From positions 1 through 64,000 of the forward strand of contig CAUJIH010000103.1 of the NCBI GenBank assembly GCA_963205275.1: a DNA stretch of 64,000 nucleotides, given 5' to 3'. Of this stretch, positions 938 to 15,745 are shown one piece after another. Origin of the DNA: Verrucomicrobiota bacterium (GTDB lineage Bacteria; Verrucomicrobiota; Verrucomicrobiia; Verrucomicrobiales; DEV007). The notes beneath the pieces are model-generated. The model was given only the letters and a program-made list of their open reading frames with translations. It did not search any database and was not told the origin of the DNA. The stretch's first letter is position 1; every line of letters starts with the position of its first letter. A program made the translations under genes and the position numbers.

Positions 938-1276
938 ATGCCCACGCATATTGGCGTCACGACTAATTTTGGACTCACTACCCCAATCGGAGGTTATGTC
1001 CATGAATCTTCTCGCGAGGAAAGTATAGATGTCGCGACGATTCGTAATGAAATGGGAGTGACAGTGAAAGCAGTTCCGAAGCCTCTGATCACACGCACCG
1101 TAAGCATCAAGGGAAAGGGCGACGCCGGACTAGCCGCAGTGGTGAGCGGCGCATTTACCGAGGGGACTTTGCGCATTACTGAGGCCAAACAGAGCGAGGG
1201 TAACGACGACTTTCCTGACTTTGAAATCACTGGCCTCGCCTATCTGAATCTCTCTGGTTCTGATCAAGAATCGTAA
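938..1276 (+). CDS. Small phage tail protein, copy 1 of a paralogous pair
   Basis: This 112 aa protein shares a pattern with the next gene: a SIKGKGD / SVKGRGD core, then a strand and a late acidic motif (EAKQSEGNDD here, VKESEKNDD in the next). The pair sits where major tail or tail-tube proteins lie in other siphophages, between tail completion and chaperone genes. At about 110 aa each they are short for a classical tail-tube protein. A tail structural role is inferred from position. Confidence 0.5.
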   Translation: MPTHIGVTTNFGLTTPIGGYVHESSREESIDVATIRNEMGVTVKAVPKPLITRTVSIKGKGDAGLAAVVSGAFTEGTLRITEAKQSEGNDDFPDFEITGLAYLNLSGSDQES

Positions 1277-1282
1277 ACTGTC

Positions 1283-1615
1283 ATGCCTGTAACACTCACC
1301 CAGATCGGTATTCAATCCGTGGACATCACTTTGGCGGAAAGCGTGGAAGTGACGGCGAAAATTGAGACGAAGCCCCTGCTCGACAAGGACGGAAAGTTCG
1401 CTACGGGGGCGGCGTTTGATCCGACTTCGGATTTCAGTGTCAAGGGGCGGGGTGACCTGCCTGTGGGCCTAGCTATCGGAAGCGACGGCGGATCGGATAT
1501 CGAGGGACTGTTCAACGCGGGGATCACGATCCTCACCTCGGTCAAGGAGTCGGAGAAGAATGACGACTGGAACGCCTGGGAATGTTCTGGGCAGAATTTC
1601 CCGAATGCACTATGA
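1283..1615 (+). CDS. Small phage tail protein, copy 2 of a paralogous pair
   Basis: This 110 aa protein aligns by eye with the preceding gene, with both the SVKGRGD core and the ESEKNDD motif near the C-terminus. It starts 6 bases after its paralogue stops and its own stop overlaps the next start (ATGA at 1612-1615). A tandem duplication of a tube or tube-associated protein is the simplest reading. The two copies have diverged strongly, so both are probably used. Confidence 0.5.
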   Translation: MPVTLTQIGIQSVDITLAESVEVTAKIETKPLLDKDGKFATGAAFDPTSDFSVKGRGDLPVGLAIGSDGGSDIEGLFNAGITILTSVKESEKNDDWNAWECSGQNFPNAL

Positions 1616-2070
1616 GGACAGGTCAGAAAATCATCTTTGTTCGCGGCAGTGAACCACCCTTGCGTTCTACTGACACGTCTCTGATTGCGGCGGCTCTCGT
1701 GAGTGGCTGCCGCTTGGCAGGACAAAAGCCATTTTTGCACACGATTGAGGAAGTGAATGGGGAGGCGAGTCGGACGACTACTTGGAGCGTGGACGGGGGC
1801 AGTGAAATGGTCTTCCGCCCGAATTTCTCGGAAGAGAAAATTGACTTTGCGGAATTTCGCCGCCGTTTCGAGGATGAAAACTGGTGGCGTGAGAATCCCG
1901 ATCATCCCATTGCCTATATGAGGGCGTTTGCCGATGTCCTCGCGGATCTTTACTCACAACTTCGCAGCCAGAAGCCTGCCTTGCTTCTGAGAAAAGGCTC
2001 TCGCTTTGCTGTCATTCCTCAAGATGCCGATCCTGAGCGCAAGCGCAAAATTCTCGAACTCTTGGGATGA
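1612..2070 (+). CDS. Hypothetical phage tail-module protein
   Basis: This 152 aa protein is not recognised. The start at 1612 is preferred over the in-frame ATG at 1582 because it gives the ATGA overlap used throughout this module. The N-terminus contains a GQKIIFVRGSEPPLRST stretch, the middle is acidic, and the C-terminus is helical and basic (DPERKRKILELLG). It lies directly upstream of the chaperone gene and overlaps it by 4 bases. A structural or assembly role is likely only from context. Confidence 0.55.
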   Translation: MRTGQKIIFVRGSEPPLRSTDTSLIAAALVSGCRLAGQKPFLHTIEEVNGEASRTTTWSVDGGSEMVFRPNFSEEKIDFAEFRRRFEDENWWRENPDHPIAYMRAFADVLADLYSQLRSQKPALLLRKGSRFAVIPQDADPERKRKILELLG

Positions 2071-2510
2071 TCCAAAATTTTTCTCTCATGTCCAAAGATA
2101 CTCGATCCACTGCCCTCGAAGCCGCCTTTGCCGAACCTGCGGGTGAAACAACGAAGGTGGGGAGTCTTCATCTGCGCCCGCTCTCTCTCGGGACGGTTAA
2201 CGTCTGTCGTCAACTCGGGCTTTCGCTCTTTCTCGATGAGGATGTGGAGATCGACGATACGGAGAGACAGCGCCAGATTGTTGCCTTTGCATGGGTGCAA
2301 TCCGCGCCTCTTTCCGTGGTTCTGGCGGCACTCCGGAATGACACTGCGATAGATTGCATTGCAGAGTTTGAGTTCCAGTTGGAAGTAGGCGATCTGCCTG
2401 CGCTGATCGCGGAAATTCAAAGGGTATCGAAACTGGCTGCGGCTGCCGTAGTCGATGTGGCTCCCAAACCAGGACACACCGGAGAAGACGGCGCACCCCC
2501 AAACTACTAG
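2067..2510 (+). CDS. Tail assembly chaperone, short form (gpG-like)
   Basis: This 147 aa protein lies directly before the gp10/gpZ-like and tape measure genes, the usual place of the gpG/gpGT chaperones that bind the tape measure protein during tail assembly. Its mostly helical, acidic sequence fits that family. The last codons contain a perfect slippery heptamer, and the -1 frame stays open past the stop, which is the hallmark of this gene pair. An in-frame ATG at 2088 is an alternative start, but 2067 gives the ATGA overlap with the previous gene. Confidence 0.7.
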   Translation: MIQNFSLMSKDTRSTALEAAFAEPAGETTKVGSLHLRPLSLGTVNVCRQLGLSLFLDEDVEIDDTERQRQIVAFAWVQSAPLSVVLAALRNDTAIDCIAEFEFQLEVGDLPALIAEIQRVSKLAAAAVVDVAPKPGHTGEDGAPPNY

Positions 2511-2740
2511 AGCCAGGGTGGACAGCGGCGATCCTCTTCACTCTGGCACGCGAAACTAGCTGGACGGAGGATTTTCTGCTCTGGCAGCTCCCTCTGGCGC
2601 GAGCGCTCCAATACTACCACTGCGCTCTTCGCGCTTCTCTTGTGTGGACGATACCGCCAAGCGAACCCGTGCATGAGAGTCTGGCTCGTCTGGAAGCTCT
2701 GGCCGCGACTCTGGGCGTTGACGAGGAGGACTGGACATGA
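2067..2740 (+). CDS. Tail assembly chaperone, -1 frameshift fusion (gpGT-like)
   Basis: Shifting -1 at the CCCAAAC heptamer (2498-2504) bypasses TAG at 2508-2510 and adds 78 codons, giving a predicted 224 aa fusion ending at TGA 2738-2740. The extension contains TEDFLLWQLPLARALQYY and ends in an acidic GVDEEDWT. It has no convincing start codon of its own, and its stop overlaps the start of the next gene (ATGA). In lambda and relatives the rare fusion bridges the tail tube and the tape measure protein. The frameshift is predicted from sequence only. Confidence 0.75.
2498..2504 (+). other. Programmed -1 frameshift site (CCCAAAC)
   Basis: In the zero frame the codons read C CCA AAC, an exact X XXY YYZ heptamer. 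After slipping, the tRNAs re-pair with CCC and AAA. The zero-frame stop follows one codon later. No strong downstream pseudoknot was worked out by eye, although the following region is GC-rich. Confidence 0.7.
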
Positions 2741-3387
2741 GCATAGACATCGACATGCGCGAGTTCATGAACACGGTGGCTCGCTTTTTGGCCACTTCGA
2801 AGAGGGACGGCCTAGTGGTGATGCGGGAACAGGCTCGCGGAGTGCTTCGTGAGGTGATCGCGCTGACTCCGCCGGGCCGACCGGGAGTGTCCGGGAACGC
2901 CCGAAGTCGCGGGGCAGCAAAGGTGAAAGCAGATATACTAAAGCTGGTTCGGGGAACGAATGCCGAGGCTCGCGTGGAGCGGCTCGATATAGCGCAAATC
3001 CACGCAGCCAATCGGCGAGGAGGCCGTGTGACAAGCTCGATCACTCCGCGTATCCGTGTCCCTGCCAGTGCTCTTCGCGCCTACATCCAGAGAAAACAAA
3101 AGCGGGTGGGACGGCTCGCCTCTGGTTGGAACACGGCGGCGGCCCGTCTCGGCTATCGCCCTCCCGCATGGATCTGGAGAAATGATGGCCCCGGTTCTAT
3201 CGAGATTCGTGTGACTGATAAAGACCTCGTGATCCGGGCGACGAACCAGGTTGCATACGCCTCCGAGATTTCGATGCTCAATCGACGCATTCAGACCGCA
3301 CTCAATATCCAGCGTAACAAAATGGAGCGCCGTCTCGCCTATTTCATGAAACAGTCGGCAGCTCGCTCCGGGTTCAAGTCCTCGTAA
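2737..3387 (+). CDS. HK97 gp10/gpZ-like minor tail or tail-completion protein
   Basis: This 216 aa basic protein begins with a helix-rich segment (REQARGVLREVIALTPPG) followed by Gly/Ser/Arg-rich sequence, then VGRLASGWNTAAARLG and a late beta segment with NQVAYASEI. The combination of a TPP-G turn, an S-G-W helix and a V-Y/A-N strand is typical of proteins that complete the tail end at the neck. It overlaps the chaperone fusion by 4 bases. In most siphophages this type of gene precedes the tube gene; here it lies between chaperone and tape measure. Confidence 0.5.
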   Translation: MSIDIDMREFMNTVARFLATSKRDGLVVMREQARGVLREVIALTPPGRPGVSGNARSRGAAKVKADILKLVRGTNAEARVERLDIAQIHAANRRGGRVTSSITPRIRVPASALRAYIQRKQKRVGRLASGWNTAAARLGYRPPAWIWRNDGPGSIEIRVTDKDLVIRATNQVAYASEISMLNRRIQTALNIQRNKMERRLAYFMKQSAARSGFKSS

Positions 3388-3391
3388 TTCA

Positions 3392-5146
3392 ATGGCCTCC
3401 ATTACTGCTGAACTCGCCCTAGAGGTTTCCAAGTTTCAGGGAGCTTTGCGTCAGGCGCAGAATTCTCTGCGGAGCTTCCGCACTCAGGCGCGCAGTCAGG
3501 GTGCGGGACTGGGCTCAGCTATTTTTGCCAGTGTCGGAAAAGCAGCGGCGGGGATAGGGGCGATACTGGCAGGAGCCAAAATCGCATCCAAAACCGGGGA
3601 GCTAATCTCTGGCTCCATTCAGCGGGCGGTCGATGCGGAGCAACTGCAAGTGAGCTTTGACGTGCTGATCGGGGATGCCTCGAAGGCGACAAACACGATT
3701 GAGTCTCTGCGAAAACTCGGAGCTGATACTCCTTTGGAATTTCCCGAGCTTGCGGAAGCCGCCCGGCAGCTCATCGCGTTTCAGGAAGATGCCAGTACCG
3801 TCACGGACACGCTGCGGCGGATCGGAGACGTGTCCACGGGAATTCAGGCTCCCATCGGCGAGATTGCTGAAATGTATGGTCGCGCTCGTGTCCAGGGGCG
3901 GCTATTTTCTCAGGACTTGAAGCGCTTAACAAGTCGCGGTATCCCCATCATACAGGAATTTGCCAAGCAGTTGGGAGTCACGGATTCCGAGGTGCAGAAG
4001 ATGGCTAGCGCTGGGAAACTGAGCTTTTCCAATCTAGAACAGGCCTTTATCGACCTGACTTCCGAGGGAGGGAAATTCAACAACATGATGGAGCGCCAGA
4101 GTCACACGGTGGGCGGTCTCTGGTCCACTTTGCAGGATAACTTCGGCGAAATGCTGCTTTCCTTCGGTGAACCCATCAATGATGCATTGCGCCCGCTGCT
4201 CGAAGATGCTGTGGAGCAGGTCGATAAACTTCAGGAAGGAGCCGCTCGATTGGGGGCGGCGCTTTCCTCGGCCATGCGAATCGTGATCGGAATTTTTCGC
4301 GAGTTCAGCATGGGCGAAATCGGGCTGCTCCTGCTCGATTCGCTTGTGCTGGCTTTCAAGTCCTCGGTGAACACGCTCTATCGAGGGCTTGTGAGCGTGA
4401 TCGCTGCTGCGGGTCGGTTCATCGTCGAAATCTTCAAGAGTGCTTTGACGCTCTTTTCGATTCTCGGCACCGCAGACTTCTGGAAAGGCATGGGCAATGT
4501 TCTCGCCGGTGTCGCGAAGACCTTTGCTGCCATCCTCATGGAACTGCTGGCCAAAGCGATTGAGCAAATCAAGCGTATCCCTGGGGCGAGCCGACTGCTC
4601 GGAGATTCGGATTCTTCCCTGCGAAATACTGCCGAATCTCTTCGCAAAGGTGCCGATGAAAAGCTCGCAAGAGGGTCCGACCTTCTCACGCCTGCTTTTG
4701 AAGCCGTCCAGCAACAAATGGGAGAGACTTTTCAGAACGTGGGAGAGGTGTTCACCGACGTTTGGAATAATCTCGATGATCTCATGGATACCGATGGAGA
4801 GGAATCCCGGCTCGCCGATGCTGTCCTTCGGATGATGGATCGCATGGCGCAGATGGACAAGAAGCCCGAGGTATCGAAAGGAGGGGGGCCTCCACCTGCG
4901 CTTGCCTCTGCCGGGAAGATGGAAACAGGGCGTCTTGCCACAGGAGCGTTTGCATCTGCGATCAATCTGATCATGGGACGCAGTGCCAACGAGATGATTC
5001 TCGATGAGACAAAGAAGCAGACGGAGATGCAGCAGCGTATGGTGAGCGAGTTGCAGGGACTCAATCAGAAAATGACTCCGACTCCTCAGAGTAGTGCACC
5101 TGCCGCCCCGGTTCTCGCAGTTGATACGGTGGCTCGTTTTGGATGA
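3392..5146 (+). CDS. Tape measure protein
   Basis: This 584 aa protein sets tail length and is threaded through the tail tube. Residues about 75-260 match the conserved tape-measure N-terminal domain: a QVSFDVLIGDASKA start, a TPLEFPELAEAARQL segment, GRLFSQDLKRLTSRGIPI, and a closing NMMERQSHTVGGLWSTLQD. Hydrophobic and helical stretches follow (about 300-400), and the C-terminus is Met/Gln-rich. By the usual rule of about 0.15 nm per residue the tail would be near 90 nm, short for a siphophage. It overlaps the next gene by 4 bases. Confidence 0.9.
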   Translation: MASITAELALEVSKFQGALRQAQNSLRSFRTQARSQGAGLGSAIFASVGKAAAGIGAILAGAKIASKTGELISGSIQRAVDAEQLQVSFDVLIGDASKATNTIESLRKLGADTPLEFPELAEAARQLIAFQEDASTVTDTLRRIGDVSTGIQAPIGEIAEMYGRARVQGRLFSQDLKRLTSRGIPIIQEFAKQLGVTDSEVQKMASAGKLSFSNLEQAFIDLTSEGGKFNNMMERQSHTVGGLWSTLQDNFGEMLLSFGEPINDALRPLLEDAVEQVDKLQEGAARLGAALSSAMRIVIGIFREFSMGEIGLLLLDSLVLAFKSSVNTLYRGLVSVIAAAGRFIVEIFKSALTLFSILGTADFWKGMGNVLAGVAKTFAAILMELLAKAIEQIKRIPGASRLLGDSDSSLRNTAESLRKGADEKLARGSDLLTPAFEAVQQQMGETFQNVGEVFTDVWNNLDDLMDTDGEESRLADAVLRMMDRMAQMDKKPEVSKGGGPPPALASAGKMETGRLATGAFASAINLIMGRSANEMILDETKKQTEMQQRMVSELQGLNQKMTPTPQSSAPAAPVLAVDTVARFG

Positions 5147-5835
5147 GTTCTTCTTTTCAAATGCTCGGTCTCAATGCCAGCCGAGACGAGCGACGACTAA
5201 TCTCGGTCTCCATTCCTTGGAACTGCAAAACGCTTTCAGAAACCATGAATGTCGGAGGCGGCAATCCCTTCGGACTCCCCGAGACAGGTCGGCAGGTCAA
5301 TCAGCTTGAAGACGCTTCCTACCAGGTCACAATCACCTACGAAGGGACAGAGGAGGAACCGGGAGAAGAGGCCAGCTACGAATTTGATTCGTCGTTTCGC
5401 GAGGAGCCCATCGAGAGTCATCCCAAGATCGCTCTCATCCGAAAGCGATTTGGGGGAGTCATAGGCGATGACGGTCGTATCAATTTCCCCGAAAAGGTGC
5501 CCAGTGATTCCAGCGAGACTGTCGGACTCGGTGGAGGGGAAGAATCACGAGGTGAGAAGAATCCTTTCTTCGGCCAGACCACCTATTTGGTTCTCAACGC
5601 CATATTTCGTAGAACGTATCTGAAGCGACGCATTCCGGCCAATATTCTCGATGATGTCGGCACAACCCGCCCCCGTCTCCCTGGAGGACTGCCGACTCCT
5701 AAAGGGCGCAACTGGCTCATCATGCCCCCGAAGATTAGCATGCGCGGCAATGTCTATCAGATCACCGAGGAATGGATGCTTTCCAAGCCGGGAGAAGAAT
5801 GGCCCGCCGTGATCTACGGGCTAATTGAAAAGTGA
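5143..5835 (+). CDS. Hypothetical phage protein after the tape measure (distal-tail position)
   Basis: This 230 aa protein is not recognised. It has an acidic linker (about residues 60-85, EGTEEEPGEE) and a Gly-rich stretch, followed by a basic beta-rich C-terminal half ending in EEWPAVIYGLIEK. Genes directly after the tape measure usually encode the distal tail or baseplate hub, so that role is inferred. It is coupled to both neighbours by overlapping start and stop codons. Confidence 0.55.
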   Translation: MSSSFQMLGLNASRDERRLISVSIPWNCKTLSETMNVGGGNPFGLPETGRQVNQLEDASYQVTITYEGTEEEPGEEASYEFDSSFREEPIESHPKIALIRKRFGGVIGDDGRINFPEKVPSDSSETVGLGGGEESRGEKNPFFGQTTYLVLNAIFRRTYLKRRIPANILDDVGTTRPRLPGGLPTPKGRNWLIMPPKISMRGNVYQITEEWMLSKPGEEWPAVIYGLIEK

Positions 5836-6470
5836 CTGTCTGTGACATGATAGATTTGCGAGAACTCTATGTGCAGCCGGGGCAACCCGTCTTGCCCGCG
5901 TGGCGGAGGCTTCTCGAATGGTCCAAGCAATTTCGTCTGTTCGCGGGGCGAGGAGTTCGACTCCAGCGCACTCCGAACGGGACATACATCGTGGCTGATC
6001 TTGCCTCGAATCCTTGGAATCATCCGTTCAAGGTCCGACTCTCGGGAATGGAGGCAATGATAGGATTCGGCACGGTGCAGAATGTGGTGCCGCGAATCGA
6101 AGGTAAGCGACTCGATGGCTCCGACGATAAGGGCCGCGAAGGAGAGCCTCCCAGTCTTCTAATCACCGGGGAGCCGAACGCTGAATTGCGCTCTTGGATC
6201 ATTGTTGAAGTTCGTCCTGATCTCGAATGGGGCGAAGTTCTGATGGGAGATAAGGAGGCGGTGGTCATACGACACGTCAATGATTTACAGTCTCCCAGCG
6301 CAGAGGTGGGACGACATCCTCTCGCCATGTTGATCTGGTCTTCCAATCGACGTTCGGTTCAGCGCGTCCGACAGATCACGCACTTCAACTTGCAGCACCT
6401 CTTTGTTTTGCAACAAGGAGCCACTCCACTGGCTCCGCGTCGAGGACGCCATCTTTTCTGGGCGGCATGA
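5832..6470 (+). CDS. Hypothetical phage baseplate/tip protein
   Basis: This 212 aa protein is not recognised. The GTG at 5832 overlaps the previous stop (GTGA); an ATG 15 bases later at 5847 is an equally possible start. The N-terminus has an RLLEWSKQFRLFAGRGVRL stretch and the rest is beta-rich. It overlaps the following start by 4 bases, so it belongs to the same translational chain as the tail genes. Confidence 0.5.
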   Translation: MTVCDMIDLRELYVQPGQPVLPAWRRLLEWSKQFRLFAGRGVRLQRTPNGTYIVADLASNPWNHPFKVRLSGMEAMIGFGTVQNVVPRIEGKRLDGSDDKGREGEPPSLLITGEPNAELRSWIIVEVRPDLEWGEVLMGDKEAVVIRHVNDLQSPSAEVGRHPLAMLIWSSNRRSVQRVRQITHFNLQHLFVLQQGATPLAPRRGRHLFWAA

Positions 6471-7399
6471 AGACCATTTTCGCATCTACTTGGAACGCTC
6501 TGATTGATAGGCTCAGGCGGGAGCAGGTGATCGGCTGCACGGTAACGCAATACGGTAGCTGGAAACATCCGTGGTATGTCACGCCTGCGTGGAATAAGGA
6601 GCGCGAGGAATGGGCCTGTGAAATCAATCCGGGATTCGTAAATGGACTGGACCCGGAAGTGCGCTTGCAAGCGAGTGAGGCTCCGGAGGAAACACTGGGA
6701 CGGCTTGGGGCGACTCAAGAAGCGAGGGTCGATGCTTGGCTGACGGAAGCCCCTCAAATTCCACTTCGGCAATGGCGTGCCATCGGAGACGAGGGACTGC
6801 CTGATACTGGCGAGCGGATGCCGCCTTTCTTTCAAGCGCTCACCGAGGGAGAGTCGGAAAAGAAGAGACGGCTTCTGCGAGCTTGTGAAATCGTGCTTCG
6901 CCATGATCGAATCGCAGCCGGAACAAGCTGGAATCTCGGCTCGGGGAGTAGTGGCAGTTTTGCCCAGTTCAGCGTAAGCTACGGACGCCGTCCAGGGGCG
7001 CGAGAACGAGCCTACCTCCGCACGACCTCTCGCTATGATCCTCCCACGCCTCCCGACCCGCTTGATTTACTTCTCGGTAAGGTGGTAGACGAAGGGATAG
7101 ATTCACTGCATCTATCCACTGTCTATCTTCTCTCTCCGGAAGGGGCTTCGCCCGAGTCGCCTCCGGATGCAAGCTGGACTCCATTCGTGAGACATCGAGT
7201 GTTTTGGAATCTGATTTACGCGGTCCGCTTCGATCCGCCTGTCGGGCGCACGGATGACATTACGCTCTACACAGGACTCGGTGGCGGGATCGCCGATGGA
7301 ATGATCAATCAAATGCTCGCTCAGAACAACGACGCAAGTGCCGCTGCCATGCAGTTCCTGTCGAATCGTAGCATCGAGGGCAGATTTTGGACGATTTGA
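6467..7399 (+). CDS. Hypothetical phage baseplate/tip protein
   Basis: This 310 aa protein is not recognised. It is Trp-rich at the N-terminus (STWNALIDRLRREQ, GSWKHPWYVTPAWNKE), has a Ser/Gly segment near the middle (NLGSGSSGSFAQFSVSYG) and a Gly-rich turn near the end (YTGLGGGIADGMINQML). Context, between the tape measure and the large fibre-like gene, suggests a virion tip component. Confidence 0.5.
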   Translation: MKTIFASTWNALIDRLRREQVIGCTVTQYGSWKHPWYVTPAWNKEREEWACEINPGFVNGLDPEVRLQASEAPEETLGRLGATQEARVDAWLTEAPQIPLRQWRAIGDEGLPDTGERMPPFFQALTEGESEKKRRLLRACEIVLRHDRIAAGTSWNLGSGSSGSFAQFSVSYGRRPGARERAYLRTTSRYDPPTPPDPLDLLLGKVVDEGIDSLHLSTVYLLSPEGASPESPPDASWTPFVRHRVFWNLIYAVRFDPPVGRTDDITLYTGLGGGIADGMINQMLAQNNDASAAAMQFLSNRSIEGRFWTI

Positions 7400-7401
7400 G
7401 A

Positions 7402-7581
7402 ATGGCGACCAGGAAAAATAACACAGTCAATGATGGCTTTGGTCTCGACAAAGATAGGCGGCTCGTGGATCAGCGGGAGCGGAAACAGGCGGAAAAGAAT
7501 TCGCCTCCCCCGCTCAATCCGAAGTTCCCGTTTCATGCAGTGGTGTTCGATCCTATCCTCGCTCAGGTGCGACGGAGATGA
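7402..7581 (+). CDS. Small basic hypothetical phage protein
   Basis: This 59 aa product begins at ATG 7402 (a TTG in frame at 7387 is less likely). It is charged and Lys/Arg/Asn-rich at the start and has NSPPPLNPKFPFHAVV near the end. It fills the gap between two larger tail genes in the same direction. Its reality rests on position and on filling an otherwise empty 200-base gap. Confidence 0.45.
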   Translation: MATRKNNTVNDGFGLDKDRRLVDQRERKQAEKNSPPPLNPKFPFHAVVFDPILAQVRRR

Positions 7582-7607
7582 ATTGTTGACACTCTGTCCG
7601 ATTCAAC

Positions 7608-10067
7608 GTGCAGGCTATCCTTTACGCGAATCTGACTTCTCATAAGGTCTCCGATTCTCTCGGAGGCCCTGACTTCGACTGGCCGGATTTTATTGAAGGG
7701 GACACGTTCCGCATCGGCCTGCGTCTGACGGAAACTCTCGGCGATGAAGATTTAGAGATTCGTCGGAATGTTCGCCGGGTTCGGGCGTCTCTCGGGTGGA
7801 TTGATGCCCGTCCTGCCAGGGGGCAATGGGCGATTCAGATCGGCTCGGGTTCATCTGAGGAAGGCGTGAATACGACGACTCTCCTAGAGCATGATGCGGA
7901 TGCGAATTTGGTCCAAGCGGCTCTCACGGACATGATCACTGGCCGTGATTTCGATGTTCCTGGTGTCGATGTAACGACGGCGCAGGTCGAGGAGAAGGAC
8001 GGGAGTTGGGTCGTGTTTTTTGAGAACAGCTCCGGACCTATATCGGAACCAATACAACTGCGGGCCGGAAGAAATACTCTTGATCCCATCTCTTTTCTCA
8101 AGGTCCGCACATACGAGGTGGATGGGCGTTGGGCGCATGAGTTGAGACTTGTCCAAGCACCACTGGCCTTTACCGATGACTCCTCTCCGGTAGTTCCTCT
8201 CGGTCCGGCGATTACGGAAGTCCAATCGGGCGGTTCGGAAGGGGAGATTACCTGGAACGAGATTCAGGCGCTGACAATCTCGCCCCAGTTCCGGGGAGCA
8301 TACCAGATCAAGCATCCCAATACTTACGCTCGCTCGGGTCTGCTGAGTGTGTCTGACGGGATAGAACAAATCTCCGAGGCGATTAAGCCTCTCGCGGAAG
8401 AGGACGGATCGTTCGTCGTAACCAACCCCTTGCCCCATGTCGCCCATATTGAATTCGCCGGATCGATGGCGGGACAGGGGCATGACGAGCTCCTCGTCGA
8501 TGTGGTATCGGCTCCTCCCGGTGACATGACTTGTGAGTTGAGTCTCTCGACTGCGGAACTCGCCAATGCGCTCAGGAAATCACCTCTGATTGAGAATCTC
8601 CCCTTTGAACTGGAGGTGACATACGAGGACGAGAATGATTCGGATGACCTTCATGTCTGGACTTTCAGAACGGAGGTAACGCTCCGCCGTGATTTGATTG
8701 GGGAAGATCTCGCTTCTGCTCAGAATATTGACTGGCTGCGCCCACCCTTGCCGAAGGATTATGTTCCATTCACACGAGACCAGATCATCACGGGAAATCA
8801 GCATTACGTGACGACTCTCGGGGATGGGATCAACACGGTTTTTGTGATCGACCACAATCTCGATACTGAAGCTCTCCACCTCACGCTACGCGAGAATTTG
8901 CCGGGAGGGGCGATCCTACGCACAGGGATCGATTATACGGCAATCATTGCGGACTCGAACTCTATCGAACTCACCTTCCTCGGGGATGCTCTAGAATTGA
9001 GTTCTGTGGCGGTTCTCATCACGACTGCTGGCCCGATCTCGGCATTTCAATCCCACACTCACACGATTGCTCAAATCGTCGATCTTCAGACCATCTTGGA
9101 TGCTTTTGGAGCCGATATTGCGATGCTCAAAGCTCTGGCACCTTCAGGAGCTCTTGCATCGAGGGAGAAAGAAGGAGGGCTGGCTTCGATATGGACTCTG
9201 CCAAAATTCTTCGAAATCTTTCCATCGCGGAAACAGATCGCTCTGCCAAACGATCAAATCATCGACCTTTTCAATGCCGGTGACTCCGCACTCCCTCGTG
9301 CGGGGGGACTCTTGGCTGCGGTTCACGATACTGATGTCGAAGCTCTTCCCTATCCTCTCCCGGAGCCGTCTGCGATTTTTGTGGATCGAGTGTTCGAGAA
9401 TCAGGGACTCAGTCGTGTCACGCTGCCCGGTGGTCTCGGGCGAAGAAGTGTAGATCTGGCACCGGGCGAGTTCGCGGCTTGTGATGGACGAGTCTGGTAT
9501 CGCGTGGAGCAGTTTGGCAATACCTCGGAATCCAGCTACTATCCCAGCGATTTTACACGAGAGCTGTTCCGGTTCTTTGTAAACGATAAGCAACTGCGGC
9601 ATCGAACGGAGCTTCTTCTTCAGTTTTCTATCGAACTCGCTGTTCTGAAGTCCAATACGAATTGCCAGTGGACTGTGGTGGTCGAGCTGGGTACTGCTCC
9701 CCAAGATGTTTCTCCGGGAACCCCTGGGATCAACCTGCAAAACGTGATCTGGTCGGCGCAACCTGCACTCGAACAACGGCTGATCTTAACCCCTGTCCCA
9801 TGTGCACATATCTTCGGTATTCGTGTTGCACGTTCTCTTTCCAGCGGGTCAGACACGCTCACTCTCGACCGACTTTTATACGGGACATCGGAGGGCGGAA
9901 CTCCTCCAGACTCAGCCAACTTCGCAGTGCGTGCCCGACTGGTGCGCTTCGATACCGAGAATCATCAAAGTGATCCACGAGGGTTCGTCGCGGTGAGGGG
10001 TCTCGATCACGCTGCGGAGGGCAGCTCAAGCATTCGCTACCTCGGTCAGGCGGTCATTCAGAAATAA
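7608..10067 (+). CDS. Large phage tail tip/fibre-like protein
   Basis: This 819 aa protein is the largest in the tail module. The GTG at 7608 is the first usable start. The sequence is almost entirely beta-rich. Residues about 400-480 contain the pattern TLGDGINTVFVIDHNLDTEA with a following RTGIDYTA, a repeat type common in phage tail fibre proteins, where a parametrised value is mapped to a beta-sandwich. A SHTHTIAQIVDLQ segment near residue 485 resembles collar or trimer motifs of fibres. Host recognition is inferred; no chaperone or enzymatic motif was seen. Confidence 0.6.
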   Translation: MQAILYANLTSHKVSDSLGGPDFDWPDFIEGDTFRIGLRLTETLGDEDLEIRRNVRRVRASLGWIDARPARGQWAIQIGSGSSEEGVNTTTLLEHDADANLVQAALTDMITGRDFDVPGVDVTTAQVEEKDGSWVVFFENSSGPISEPIQLRAGRNTLDPISFLKVRTYEVDGRWAHELRLVQAPLAFTDDSSPVVPLGPAITEVQSGGSEGEITWNEIQALTISPQFRGAYQIKHPNTYARSGLLSVSDGIEQISEAIKPLAEEDGSFVVTNPLPHVAHIEFAGSMAGQGHDELLVDVVSAPPGDMTCELSLSTAELANALRKSPLIENLPFELEVTYEDENDSDDLHVWTFRTEVTLRRDLIGEDLASAQNIDWLRPPLPKDYVPFTRDQIITGNQHYVTTLGDGINTVFVIDHNLDTEALHLTLRENLPGGAILRTGIDYTAIIADSNSIELTFLGDALELSSVAVLITTAGPISAFQSHTHTIAQIVDLQTILDAFGADIAMLKALAPSGALASREKEGGLASIWTLPKFFEIFPSRKQIALPNDQIIDLFNAGDSALPRAGGLLAAVHDTDVEALPYPLPEPSAIFVDRVFENQGLSRVTLPGGLGRRSVDLAPGEFAACDGRVWYRVEQFGNTSESSYYPSDFTRELFRFFVNDKQLRHRTELLLQFSIELAVLKSNTNCQWTVVVELGTAPQDVSPGTPGINLQNVIWSAQPALEQRLILTPVPCAHIFGIRVARSLSSGSDTLTLDRLLYGTSEGGTPPDSANFAVRARLVRFDTENHQSDPRGFVAVRGLDHAAEGSSSIRYLGQAVIQK

Positions 10068-10075
10068 AACAATCC

Positions 10076-11089
10076 ATGGCAATCCCAGTCATCAACAGCA
10101 ACACATCGGTCCTCGCTCTGGTGCGGGGCGTCGGGTTCGCATTCCAGCCCACAGGCGATGATCTTCCTCGCGTGGATGTAACAGCGTCGGCGTCTACCGA
10201 TACGCTCACCTTTGCTCGGAACAATCCTCCTTTGGCAAATGGCAATCGGGTTCGGACCTTTCCGCTTCCAGGGGAGAATTTGCCCGCTCCACTGAATACG
10301 GAGAACAGCTACTTTCTCAGAGACTTGACTTCTTCCACGTGCAAACTCGCCTCAACGAGTGGCGGGGCTGCGATCAATATAACGAGTGAGGGAGGCTATT
10401 TTCAACTCCTGCGAGCCGACACTTGGAGCGCCCATGGATTGCCGCCGGGGATTGTGGTTAATCCAGTGTCCGGTCTCATATCTGGGACTCCTGAAATCGC
10501 GGGAGTCTATAACGTCACGCTTCGAGCGCGTAACTCGGATGGACAGAGCAACGATCACATCATCACGATGGGTGTCGAGCCGACTCCGTGGCTGCAAGAT
10601 GCCTCAATCGAGATCGACGTGAATCTGCGAGATGGACGGGTTCGCCTCTCACAAGTGTCGGAGCAGCAATCTGACAGTTCTGCTCAAGAGGAATCACAAC
10701 CAATCCTTCACGTGAAGTTCGGAGACAGACTGGTGCTGAGCCTTGGATTTATGAAAGACGAAACTCTCGTCGAGCTGCCCTTGGAACAAATCCGCTTTGG
10801 ACTGAAAGAATTTGAACCGGAGAGACTTCATCTCCTCAACGACGGCTCTTATCTCCAAGTGGGAGAGTTCGAGGAGGCGAGGTATCAGATTCTTGCGGAG
10901 TTCACCGGCACTGCCCTCGCTTCTATCTTGTCAGGGTACGAAGAAGATGTGGACACCTATTTCGACGCGGTGGCAGAAATCGAATTTGTGACTCTCTACG
11001 AGGCGGGAGGGCAGATTCACGATCTGCGGCGCACGACTCGTTCTTTCATCGTTCGGATTCACCGGGATCTGATCATTCCAAATTCCTAA
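10076..11089 (+). CDS. Phage protein with a putative Ig (He_PIG-like) domain
   Basis: This 337 aa protein contains, at about residues 122-160, the signature GLPPGIVVNPVSGLISGTP followed by AGVYNVTLRARNSDG, typical of the He_PIG/cadherin-like Ig fold found on surface and virion proteins. The N-terminal part is beta-rich and the C-terminal 150 residues form a separate acidic domain. Ig-like domains on phage tails commonly give weak carbohydrate binding. It follows the large fibre gene after an 8-base gap. Confidence 0.6.
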   Translation: MAIPVINSNTSVLALVRGVGFAFQPTGDDLPRVDVTASASTDTLTFARNNPPLANGNRVRTFPLPGENLPAPLNTENSYFLRDLTSSTCKLASTSGGAAINITSEGGYFQLLRADTWSAHGLPPGIVVNPVSGLISGTPEIAGVYNVTLRARNSDGQSNDHIITMGVEPTPWLQDASIEIDVNLRDGRVRLSQVSEQQSDSSAQEESQPILHVKFGDRLVLSLGFMKDETLVELPLEQIRFGLKEFEPERLHLLNDGSYLQVGEFEEARYQILAEFTGTALASILSGYEEDVDTYFDAVAEIEFVTLYEAGGQIHDLRRTTRSFIVRIHRDLIIPNS

Positions 11090-11095
11090 GTCTTC

Positions 11096-12304
11096 ATGTC
11101 GATACTCCCGGAGCCTTCTACCATGATGCATCTGCCTGCGGCGCTGCGCTACGCTCGCAAAGGCTTTGCGATCCGACGTGCTCTGTGGGACGGAAGCGAC
11201 GAGGAAAACGAGCTGATCTGGCTCATTTATCGAGGAGGGATTTTCTATCGCCTCAGTGCCGATAGACGGGAGATCGTGCAGAATGATCAAATGACACGCG
11301 AGGACTTTCTGGCTCGCGATTGGACGCTTCTCCCTGCTTCCTGTGTAAGTGGCAACAGTGTCGTCTCTGAGTCTCAAAGTCGGAATGGGTGTGAGTGCCG
11401 ACTCGGAGCACAACCCTACCCGGACTGGGATGATGAGGACGATCCACTGGCTGGACAGGACACAAAAAATCCGAACAGGTCAATGGGACTGGAGGGCTGC
11501 ACATGGCTGGCGGGCACTTGGTCCGGGGGATCATGTGGCTGTGGTCCGGGAACGGGTAGACCGCCAACCTGGCCAAGACTGCCGGGTGACCCACCGCCCC
11601 CAAGGCCACCAGAGCCACCAAAGCCGCCAGAGCCACCTAAACCACCAGAGCCACCCAAACCTCCTGATCCTCCTGGATCGCCTGGTACGAGCGATAGTTC
11701 TGGCACAGGAGGGGGATCGAGTAGCGGGTCGGGATCAGGAGGGGGATCGAGTGGTGGAGGCGGCAGCTCCAAGCGCCCCCCTCGTAGGCCCCGTGCCTAT
11801 GGCCTCCCAAATGTGACATTAAACGCTTTTGTGACAGATTCGAGCTGCATCCGAAGACTGCCAGAAGCGCCATGCGGACATCTCAACTTGCCTGATAATT
11901 CGCCCCAATCTCGCGAAATTGCCGGGACAATCACGATTGGCCCTCATCCTGAAGGGCTACGCGATCTGTGCTGGATCAGTGTAATCTGTGCCGGACAGGT
12001 GCTACTGCGACAAATCGGAGCGCCGGGAGATTCATTTAACTTCGGGCCTGCCGGGCCGTTTCTACAGACTGCTGGTGGCAATATGCCTGTCTTCGCAACG
12101 GTCCATTTTCCCGGACAAAGAGGGGGAACACAGAGCGCCAATGCGCAGGCAGCTTGGCCTTCTCACTGTGCTCCTCAAGGCCCTTGCCCTGATCCAAATC
12201 CTGACCCCGGTCCTGGCCCTGACCCCGGTCCTGGTCCTGATCCTGATCCTGATCCTGATCCTGATCCTGATCCTGATCCTGATCCCTATGGGGCAATGGA
12301 TTGA
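11096..12304 (+). CDS. DUF2829/Tad2-like domain fused to low-complexity tails (phage)
   Basis: This 402 aa protein is modular. Residues about 10-82 follow the DUF2829 pattern (the family of the Thoeris anti-defence protein Tad2): a helix with AALRYARKGFAIRRALWDG, a WLIY strand, and a final REDFLARDWTLLP. Then come a Cys/Trp/Gly patch (about 125-155), a proline-rich segment with PPEPPK repeats (about 165-200), a Gly/Ser linker (about 205-230), a beta-rich domain (about 240-360) and a C-terminal (Asp-Pro)n tail. The family match is by eye. A virion tip function is the alternative to anti-defence. Confidence 0.5.
   Translation: MSILPEPSTMMHLPAALRYARKGFAIRRALWDGSDEENELIWLIYRGGIFYRLSADRREIVQNDQMTREDFLARDWTLLPASCVSGNSVVSESQSRNGCECRLGAQPYPDWDDEDDPLAGQDTKNPNRSMGLEGCTWLAGTWSGGSCGCGPGTGRPPTWPRLPGDPPPPRPPEPPKPPEPPKPPEPPKPPDPPGSPGTSDSSGTGGGSSSGSGSGGGSSGGGGSSKRPPRRPRAYGLPNVTLNAFVTDSSCIRRLPEAPCGHLNLPDNSPQSREIAGTITIGPHPEGLRDLCWISVICAGQVLLRQIGAPGDSFNFGPAGPFLQTAGGNMPVFATVHFPGQRGGTQSANAQAAWPSHCAPQGPCPDPNPDPGPGPDPGPGPDPDPDPDPDPDPDPDPYGAMD
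12239..12286 (+). repeat. Hexanucleotide repeat GATCCT (7 units plus GATCCC)
   Basis: Seven perfect GATCCT units followed by a GATCCC variant encode the Asp-Pro tail of the preceding gene. Because the unit is 6 bases, slippage changes the tail length by two residues and keeps the frame. Confidence 0.9.
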
Positions 12305-12312
12305 AGCGCACC

Positions 12313-13782
12313 ATGATTACTTACCTCATCTTTGCTGGGAATGCTTCACATGAGCGTATTCAAAGCACGGTCAAGAAACTGCGTCATCAGGACTCTGACT
12401 GTCGTATCGCTCTCATTGATTCTACGCACAGGAAATCGGCAAACGAACTGCACTGCGACTTCTATCGCAGTCGCAGAATTACGCCTGGTGATTGGAATGA
12501 TGAAATGATGGCTCTCGCTGCCGTCACCGAAGCATTTCCAAATACGCGATGGATTGCACGGATTTTCTCGCTGGAGTCTCTGCCAGAGCCGCCACCCAGA
12601 GATCAACACTTCGATGCTTGGATCGATAAGACTGGATATTTTATCCGGAAGACTTTTCTCAGCCAGCATATCAGATCGTTCGCCGCAATGCAGGTGGACC
12701 ATCATCACATCCTCGATGGAGTTTTCAGGGGTGTAACAGATTTCGGCGGACGAGTGAAATACAGAAAACAGGAGCATCAATTTGCGACACTAGAAACTAC
12801 GCCAATACGCGGGGCGGTGGATGTTCTATCGGTTTTGCATCCCAATCCAAGCTGGGTGGAATATCGCGGAGAGAGACAGCAGAGCTTCTTGGCTTCCGTC
12901 GGAATCCGTCACGCATGGTCTCATCATACATCTGCATCAGCACTCGCAAATGAACTTGAGAAGCACGAAGTGAAACTGGTCCTGAATGAGATCTGGAGGA
13001 TCTCTCCGGAGATAATGGCAGCATTGGCGAAACGGTTTCCTAGAACACGGTTTGTCTCGCTCAATCACGGGGCTACCGGATGGTTCAGTACGCTGAGGCC
13101 ACGACAACATTACAAGTTTCTCCGACTGGCACGAGAACGGGAAAATTGTTTCTACGGAACCGTTATGCCCGCCGGACGGGTGATCGCTCCGCCGGAAACT
13201 AAAGTGATCGAAATACCGAATTTTGTGATGCTGCCGAGTATTGTCTCTTCACGTGAAGGGGGGCCTCCCACTGTTTCTCTCATCAGTCGAGAGGCACAAA
13301 TCAAAGCGTGGGGCGGAGCCGTGGCGGCAGTGGAATGGGCAGCTCAAAATATGCGTGATTTGCATGTGCTCGTCTCATCCGCTGATGATTCAGAAGGGCG
13401 TATTGAGGCCCATATCCAACATCTGGAAGAACTCGGAATTCCTGTGATACGCTCCCAATGGGGAAACTGGGCAAGATATCTGGACAGAATCGCTCGTTCG
13501 GTCGATGCACATCTCACGGCGACAATGACGGAATCGTTTGGACTCGTGCCGATGGAACACTGCTTGTTGGGGCGTCCTGTAGCGGGCACCGACGCCGTGG
13601 AATGGTTGCCCGCTCGCTGGAAGGCAAATGGACAAGACGCAGCGGCCCTTGGTCGCATTCTCGTGTCCCATTTTGAGCAGGGAGTGAGCCTTGGGGAGCA
13701 GGCCAGAAAACTGGCAAAGCGAGTAACGGCGAAAAATCATCGAATTCTAAAGAAAAATCTGACAACTCTACTCGATCTATGA
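12313..13782 (+). CDS. Phage-borne GT-B glycosyltransferase
   Basis: This 489 aa protein (start ATG 12313; TTG 12301 overlapping the previous stop is an alternative) has the C-terminal GT-B signature TESFGLVPMEHCLLGRPVAG, with the two Glu of the E-x7-E nucleotide-sugar motif, around residues 415-435. The N-terminal half has a Rossmann-like pattern (YLIFAGNASHERIQ). It probably transfers a sugar to a cell-surface or virion acceptor. It overlaps the sulfotransferase-like gene by 4 bases, so the two are co-expressed and probably act on the same glycan. Confidence 0.7.
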   Translation: MITYLIFAGNASHERIQSTVKKLRHQDSDCRIALIDSTHRKSANELHCDFYRSRRITPGDWNDEMMALAAVTEAFPNTRWIARIFSLESLPEPPPRDQHFDAWIDKTGYFIRKTFLSQHIRSFAAMQVDHHHILDGVFRGVTDFGGRVKYRKQEHQFATLETTPIRGAVDVLSVLHPNPSWVEYRGERQQSFLASVGIRHAWSHHTSASALANELEKHEVKLVLNEIWRISPEIMAALAKRFPRTRFVSLNHGATGWFSTLRPRQHYKFLRLARERENCFYGTVMPAGRVIAPPETKVIEIPNFVMLPSIVSSREGGPPTVSLISREAQIKAWGGAVAAVEWAAQNMRDLHVLVSSADDSEGRIEAHIQHLEELGIPVIRSQWGNWARYLDRIARSVDAHLTATMTESFGLVPMEHCLLGRPVAGTDAVEWLPARWKANGQDAAALGRILVSHFEQGVSLGEQARKLAKRVTAKNHRILKKNLTTLLDL

Positions 13783-14375
13783 ATTTTTTTGTCGTTGCGA
13801 TCGGTCACAGTGGTTCGCGCTGGCTTGCCCATGTGCTCGGTTGCGCCCATGAAGAAGCGGATTCTCGTGACAAATCGATTCCTCATCCATGGACCCCGTT
13901 TCCGGTTGAAAGATTTTGGACTGCAGGAAACGGCTACGGGGAAGTAAACGGAATGCTGCGCTTTCATTTGTCGGGCCAGTATCCGGGACGTGAACGACTG
14001 ATTCCACGCAGGGCATGGCTTCGGAGAAACCCAAGGGCAGTCGTCACGAGTTGGATGAACGATGAACTGGATCGTGATCCATTGGAACTTTCCGCCATTT
14101 GCTGGGAAGTGATGTGGCACTATAAGAATCTCTCTGAATGGGCGGCAGCAGACTCAGAGGCACGAGTCATTGATCTCGAAACGCTCTCGACCAATATTGA
14201 AGCACTCAGAGAGTTTCTTTCATGGTTAGAAGTAAAGCGAACGATTACCGAGGATTCTCTGCGACCAATCGGAGTAACTCCCAAATCTCGAACTCGTTTT
14301 ACCTGGGGAGCAAAGGAAGAGGACGTGCTTAGACGGACGATGCAGAGACTCCGTTTCTCTGGCGATTCGATCTGA
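13779..14375 (+). CDS. Small sulfotransferase-like P-loop protein (phage cargo)
   Basis: This 198 aa protein begins with VAIGHSGSRWLAHVLG, a P-loop matching the 5'-phosphosulfate (PAPS) binding loop of sulfotransferases in position and form. Later RRNPRAVVTSWMNDEL resembles the 3'-phosphate binding strand-turn-helix (Arg, then Ser/Thr). At under 200 aa it is shorter than typical bacterial sulfotransferases, so it may be a reduced member or act with the upstream glycosyltransferase. Substrate unknown. Confidence 0.55.
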   Translation: MNFFVVAIGHSGSRWLAHVLGCAHEEADSRDKSIPHPWTPFPVERFWTAGNGYGEVNGMLRFHLSGQYPGRERLIPRRAWLRRNPRAVVTSWMNDELDRDPLELSAICWEVMWHYKNLSEWAAADSEARVIDLETLSTNIEALREFLSWLEVKRTITEDSLRPIGVTPKSRTRFTWGAKEEDVLRRTMQRLRFSGDSI

Positions 14376-14407: not shown

Positions 14408-15745
14408 TCAATCCTTCTTGCGGCGAACCGTGAGAAGGCTTAGCCCTCCCACCTTTTCTGGTGGCTCCCATCCTTCCGGTGGGTAAATCGAAAACCACTT
14501 CTCTGCCGCTTCCTCACTCACGAGTTCCCTGTAGTGGCGGAAAATCATCGTTGAAGAGTTTCCGGCTTCCAGAGCCACCTTATTCACATCCTGTATGAGA
14601 GCCAGTCGATAGCTGATGTAGGAGTGCCTCAAAGCGTTATGCGGCCAGCGTATTCCAAGGGTCTCGGCGAGAACTGGGGCCATACGTGGAAGCTCCTGAA
14701 TTTTACATACCTTACCTTTGCGTTCTAGAGGAGCAAGCCACGCGAGGAGATTATCAGAAATTGGGATGATGCGTCGCGAGGCTGTTTTCGCTTGATCAGC
14801 TCGAAGTTCGATGATCCGTCGCTCCAGCTTCACTGCCTTCCAGTCGAGACGGCACAACTCTGCACGTCGGAGTCCCGCAAAGGCTGCGATTGCCAGATAG
14901 GGCACGAGAATGGCTGGAGCAGCAAGCAACAGTCGTTCGATCTCCTCTGGTTCAAAAATCTCGGTCGTTGTATTGCCTGCCTTCACCTTGGAAACGGAAT
15001 CAGCAGCGGTCGGCTCCGACGCCGGGAGATAATTTCGCTGCTTTGCGAATCCAAATAGAACGCGAAGAATTGTAAGTCGATTGTTCCGAGTCACTGCTCC
15101 GATCTTGCTCTTTCTCAGCCAAGAATCAATGTGTTCGCTCTGAATATCGATTATTGGGCCGGGAAACGCCTCCAAAAAAAGTCCGAGAATACTTCGTAGC
15201 TGCTCCAAATAGCGAGCGCTCACTCCATCCTGAGATTTTCTGATGATCAGTTCCTCCGCGATTTCCGACACTGTGACTCCCTGCTTTAGTCCACCCATAC
15301 GCTTACAGTATTCTTCCACAGCACTTCGCAGGGACGCGCCGCCGAGAATTTTCCGACACTGAACGTAGTCTTCGACTGCGGCCACGAGAGGAATTTCTAC
15401 ATCTTGGAGGATTCTCTGAGCCGCGTGAAAGGATTCTCGCTCTGCTGGGTGCAGGTCATTCTGGGACTGCATTCCTCGAACGATATTCTGGGCGATCAGT
15501 AGCCCCTCCTGCTTGGCATCTTCGAGGAAAGTGAATTGCCGCTTTTTGCGACAACCATTCAGGTAGAAGGCGATTGTGTAGCGGGTCTTCCCATGATGTT
15601 CAAAGGCGTAAATTGGGATTTTCACCGATTGGAAACGGATGATCTGATAGGGACCACGGGCACTCTTTCTGGACTGCCGTCGCACAAGATTCTGCGGCTT
15701 TTGGATAGAGTTGAGACTACTATTTGTCGGAAAATTGTCGGACAT
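14408..15745 (-). CDS. int: Tyrosine recombinase/phage integrase
   Basis: This 445 aa integrase catalyses site-specific recombination between phage and host attachment sites. An N-terminal DNA-binding part and a SAM-like core-binding domain (about residues 150-245) precede the catalytic domain. Visible catalytic residues are Arg in AAFAGLRRAELCRLDW, the H-x-x-R of PHNALRHSYISY, and Tyr in MIFRHYREL. The usual His of the GHSS box is replaced by Asn (GNSS), a form I associate with verrucomicrobial recombinases. It is convergent to the cargo genes and reads away from the tRNA, as expected at a prophage edge. Confidence 0.95.
   Translation of the reverse strand: MSDNFPTNSSLNSIQKPQNLVRRQSRKSARGPYQIIRFQSVKIPIYAFEHHGKTRYTIAFYLNGCRKKRQFTFLEDAKQEGLLIAQNIVRGMQSQNDLHPAERESFHAAQRILQDVEIPLVAAVEDYVQCRKILGGASLRSAVEEYCKRMGGLKQGVTVSEIAEELIIRKSQDGVSARYLEQLRSILGLFLEAFPGPIIDIQSEHIDSWLRKSKIGAVTRNNRLTILRVLFGFAKQRNYLPASEPTAADSVSKVKAGNTTTEIFEPEEIERLLLAAPAILVPYLAIAAFAGLRRAELCRLDWKAVKLERRIIELRADQAKTASRRIIPISDNLLAWLAPLERKGKVCKIQELPRMAPVLAETLGIRWPHNALRHSYISYRLALIQDVNKVALEAGNSSTMIFRHYRELVSEEAAEKWFSIYPPEGWEPPEKVGGLSLLTVRRKKD

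Follow-up and report, generated by a model that had tools for sequence, protein, structure and literature searches.

The window analyzed is a stretch of 64,000 nt, and its first 16 kb represent a prophage whose left side is cut by the contig end. The gene order of the prophage is a head-tail attachment protein (weak match), a tape measure protein, four further genes that are conserved with it, an Ig-domain protein, the gene described here (termed the arm gene after its proposed role), a glycosyltransferase-like gene, a short unassigned gene and an integrase (Table 1). A reading based on sequence only had placed the arm gene in a tail region, and the upstream tape measure gene bears this out. 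The arm gene has an ATG start, 6 bases past the end of the upstream gene, and overlaps the glycosyltransferase-like gene by 4 bases. The latter has a similar gene at the same place in another locus (L060, positions 1061–3013) and is followed by the short gene, which has a sulfotransferase-like start. These two genes (positions 12301–14375) are possibly surface-modifying cargo.

Table 1. Genes of the prophage and parts of the arm protein, with positions in the window
Feature	Positions	Strand	Evidence
Tape measure protein	3392–5146	+	TMP_3 9.7e-24; PHROG 9959 1.3e-67
Fibre-like tail protein, 819 aa, weak PTR tail repeat match	7608–10067	+	PF12789 E 0.017; conserved neighbour
Ig-domain (He_PIG) tail protein, directly upstream of arm	10076–11089	+	PF05345 3e-7; PHROG tail protein; conserved neighbour
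Tad2-fold fusion protein, proposed tail-tip arm	11096–12304	+	402-aa ORF; third-position excess; relatives
Tad2/DUF2829-like domain, residues 11–78	11126–11329	+	Sub-threshold PF11195; PDB profile search; AlphaFold2 model and VIA alignment
Conserved Cys-containing neck, residues 86–150, motif YP...D...NPN...C	11351–11545	+	Alignment of relatives
Linker, Pro-rich then Gly/Ser-rich, residues 151–236	11546–11803	+	Sequence composition
C-terminal beta-sandwich domain, residues 237–364	11804–12187	+	AlphaFold2 model
Low-complexity end, Asp-Pro/Gly-Pro, residues 365–402	12188–12301	+	Hexamer repeat CCTGAT x16.3
Prophage integrase, probable right end of element	14408–15745	-	PF00589 7.9e-8; phrog_1 8.3e-25

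Substitutions between the arm gene and two relatives favour the third codon position; in the C-domain, for example, the counts are 23/19/80 over 128 codons. This excess indicates a protein under purifying selection. The ORF and its layout are as first read, including the proline-rich stretch, the beta domain and the Asp-Pro tail. Residues Y108 and C135 of the neck are invariant in an alignment of 26 sequences. The linker varies in length and composition in every relative. The beta-sandwich model has a pLDDT of 89.4 and a pTM of 0.81. Its structural matches are generic Ig-like beta-sandwiches with Z up to 9.2, and the likeness is by fold only, with no match to a Pfam family. The Asp-Pro end is encoded by 16 copies of the hexamer and is replaced by poly-Pro in relatives. 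A match of this end to Trypan_PARP (procyclic acidic repetitive protein) was rejected as a low-complexity match. There are 12 cysteines in the window protein and 36–54 in the phage copies.

Relationship of the N-terminal domain to Tad2

Tad2 is a known sponge of viruses for immune signals. The N-terminal domain aligns to positions 1–72 of the 73 positions of the PF11195 Tad2-like family, with an E value of 0.0012 and 19.7 bits when the domain alone is used, which is below the curated cut-off of 25 bits. With the full-length protein as query the score is just 14.1 bits. The DUF2829/Tad2 pattern pointed out earlier at the N-terminus stands as relatedness, by profile, profile-profile and fold comparison, but not as a match above the Pfam cut-off. 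PF11195 is matched by 15 of 20 diverse relatives (best E 0.00067), and any other family matches at most one of them. When the arm-family profile was compared with 177,635 PDB sequences, the best seven matches were all seven Tad2-family sequences present (E 0.008–0.1), and the same seven are found with SPO1 Tad2 as query. Alignment of the arm family with nine phage Tad2 proteins by hhalign gives a score of 47 and an E value of 1e-8 over a 25-column N-terminal motif; 200 column shuffles score 18.7 or less.

A template-free AlphaFold2 model of residues 9–82 has a middling pLDDT of about 73 and the order alpha-beta-beta-beta-beta-alpha-beta. In VIA structure alignment the six best matches of this model are all Tad2 entries, over 63–66 residues with an rmsd of 2.6–3.0, and with Z values of 5.3 to 4.2 that are weak if taken alone; the first unrelated row has a Z of 3.2. 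Foldseek searches of the PDB and BFVD gave no significant match (none with E < 0.6) and no highly ranked Tad2 entry, and it is therefore the VIA alignment that bears the structural claim. One "Thoeris anti-defense 2-like" protein is at BFVD rank 16 (E 0.62). It is the agreement of separate tests, i.e., sequence profile, profile-profile and fold comparison, that carries the conclusion that the domain is very probably homologous to Tad2. A convergent or spurious likeness of an unrelated small alpha-beta fold, to which the Pfam score under the cut-off, the short span of the profile-profile match and the Foldseek result would lend themselves, is highly improbable and already disfavoured, in that Tad2 heads both the sequence search and the structure alignment and every shuffle lies far under the real hhalign score.

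Residues of the signal pocket were judged by 13 positions that are invariant in nine free-standing phage Tad2 proteins, together with the loops named in a review (PMC12043709), which places the beta1-beta2 loop and the beta4-alpha3 loop around the Tad2 signal pocket. The fold core is kept in the arm family, with A10 present in 18 of 20 sequences and G17, R22, W25, D84 and W85 in all 20. The pocket loops are not: Trp73 is present in 0 of 20 sequences, and Ser76, Asn26 and Lys28 in one of 20 each. The loop motifs of free-standing Tad2 (WNGK, and WxxS before helix 3) are mostly lost in the family, with W25 of WNGK kept. In all 20 sequences the segment that leads into the final helix is without Trp, although the mid-domain alignment is uncertain. 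The arm family has invariant residues of its own, R27, R28, W42 and T77, which may represent a different interface or ligand site.

Host proteins of 159–199 aa (L010, L029, L031 and L033) have a hydrophobic leader and a motif (ATPYVKEGFSVREDNWSGE) similar to the first half of the domain. Their profile matches are weak and the second half of the domain is unmatched.

Operon position and variability of the arm family

Relatives of the arm are found in Verrucomicrobiales prophages of the same and sister families, including records named Akkermansiaceae, and in 14 IMG/VR contigs. The arm and its fibre-like neighbour have no match in INPHARED phages, and PHROGs and NCBIfam searches gave nothing consistent for the arm. 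In 387 genomes sampled across the phylum there is almost nothing outside the order; this search sets no bound on distribution, as few candidates were scored per genome and known members were missed.

The Ig-domain tail gene is directly before the arm gene in 30 of the 31 loci that have upstream sequence. In addition, a fibre-like gene was detected in 26 of these loci and a tape measure gene in 23. The place of the arm with the tail genes, proposed at first for the window only, is fixed across the family, and encoding in a tail operon is expected of a tail-tip adhesin. In a different setting (L056, positions 4167–10663), an arm gene with the Tad2 fold adjoins an integrase gene and one for a DUF3987 protein, and tail genes are absent from the vicinity. 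This element is either satellite-like or what is left of a prophage, with its own arm.

Long complete members consist of the N-domain, the neck, a low-complexity stalk and the beta-sandwich. This stalk may be poly-Gly or poly-Pro or, at the other extreme, a series of many four-Cys repeats. Between 11 long phage copies from IMG/VR the median pairwise identity is 0.69 in the N-domain, 0.80 in the sandwich, 0.48 in the linker and 0.16 at the end. Two of the phage copies (L081 and L082) have 95% identity in both domains, but their distal ends are unrelated (18%). A conserved base with a variable or swapped distal end is also what is expected of a tail-tip adhesin. Over a larger distance, between the window type and the Akkermansiaceae type, the N-module has about 30% identity and the sandwich 17–19%.

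In the Akkermansiaceae-type phages (L074–L086) there are tandem copies, one short (about 140 aa) and one long (about 520–690 aa). The short copy is directly before the long copy and consists of the N-domain and neck only, which suggests a base module able to stand alone. The long copies have four-Cys repeats in variable number. Cys motifs similar to CBM_14 are present in two other members, near the distal end in L056 and in the stalk in L057, and are too weak for a claim of sugar binding.

Proposed role and comparison with known systems

The reading that we favour, with moderate confidence, is that the protein is a virion-associated tail-tip arm, an adhesin-like accessory protein with a Tad2-fold base that serves in attachment or assembly and not as a sponge. 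The particle would be that of a siphovirus-like Verrucomicrobiales prophage, with the arm at the tail tip. The N-terminal base, a Tad2-fold domain without the signal-binding motif, probably oligomerizes, by analogy with the Tad2 tetramer. Together with the conserved Cys neck it probably docks onto the Ig-domain tail protein encoded just before it. The Pro/Gly-rich linker would form a flexible stalk, and the C-terminal beta-sandwich and exchangeable distal end would point outward and could touch the cell envelope or glycans. The operon position, the loss of pocket residues with retention of the fold, and the conserved domains with a swapped end support this reading. The many cysteines suggest disulphides and an exposure of the arm outside the cytosol. 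Points against it are that the protein has no solved relative and no INPHARED match, that confidence in the N-domain model is middling, and that one arm gene is found without tail genes.

The Tad2-fold domain could instead be a receptor- or glycan-binding tip, with the sandwich as the anchor in the virion. The sandwich is conserved at least as well as the N-domain in close relatives, but near-identical phages swap the distal end and not the N-domain, the separate short copy consists of just the N-domain and neck, and in the wider comparison it is the N-module that is better conserved. This arrangement is unlikely. The sequence-only reading had proposed a ligand-binding tip domain as its second option; this option fits better than a sponge, but the conserved N-terminus and variable distal end put the Tad2 part at the base, as a module of attachment or assembly more than a tip.

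Its first option, an anti-defence protein carried in the virion, is disfavoured. A Tad2-type sponge that is carried in or made with the virion would capture a defence signal, perhaps a nucleotide other than gcADPR, and the arms would be passengers. The homology to Tad2 is genuine, Tad2 proteins are known to vary in ligand (gcADPR, His-ADPR and cyclic dinucleotides; PMC12043709, PMC13299392), and the four family-specific invariant residues could form another pocket. However, the pocket residues of free-standing Tad2 are lost, the arms are rich in Cys, and the gene is a conserved member of a structural operon and not a mobile accessory gene. TIR searches of the host genome found two proteins, and no Thoeris pair was recognized at them (neighbours examined for one of the two), which also counts against a sponge. 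We consider this function quite unlikely. One of the TIR-domain proteins directly adjoins a type I restriction specificity subunit (L092, positions 1294–1929), and the second is 895 aa. PADLOC gave no match.

The tail-tip arm reading suggests that the Tad2 fold was put to new use as a structural part of the virus particle and was not retained as a sponge. The Pfam name of PF11195 is now "Thoeris anti-defense 2-like". Since Tad2 relatives without the sponge motif exist in tail operons, a PF11195 match alone is no proof of counter-defence. The arm family also offers a way into the tail tips of Verrucomicrobia phages, on which there has been little work, and points to an evolutionary connection of a virion module with a signal sponge that can be tested. 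It is conceivable, though fairly unlikely, that tail architecture and counter-defence are linked by descent, either because a sponge fold was taken over as the base of a tail arm or because a virion module of this kind gave rise to the sponges. In its strongest form the idea would have the base bind a small-molecule signal to this day, with delivery by the virion.

In comparison with known systems, the closest is Tad2/DUF2829 (PF11195; SPO1 gp34.65, ModTad2, SptTad2, AcrIIA7). It has in common with the arm N-domain the helix-strand core order and the motifs A..G....R..W and D...A.DW, and it ranks first in the comparisons of sequence profile and fold. The arm differs from free-standing Tad2 in that it is without Trp73, Ser76 and the Asn-Gly-Lys, and in that the domain makes up the N-terminal part of a 350–700 aa protein that also has a neck, a stalk and a beta-sandwich and whose gene lies in a tail operon. 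Ig-like beta-sandwich accessory domains (He_PIG, CARDB-like) share the sandwich fold and, in the neighbouring gene, the Ig domain, but the arm sandwich resembles them only in the manner typical of generic sandwiches. Phage receptor-binding proteins and tail-tip adhesins have a conserved base, a repetitive stalk, an exchangeable end and a late position in the tail operon, as does the arm, whose base is a Tad2 fold and whose sequence matches no described tail fibre family. No description of a Tad2 fold combined with a tail adhesin was found in the literature searched, which was mostly without subscription papers. The Tad2 fold and the tail-adhesin design are each known.
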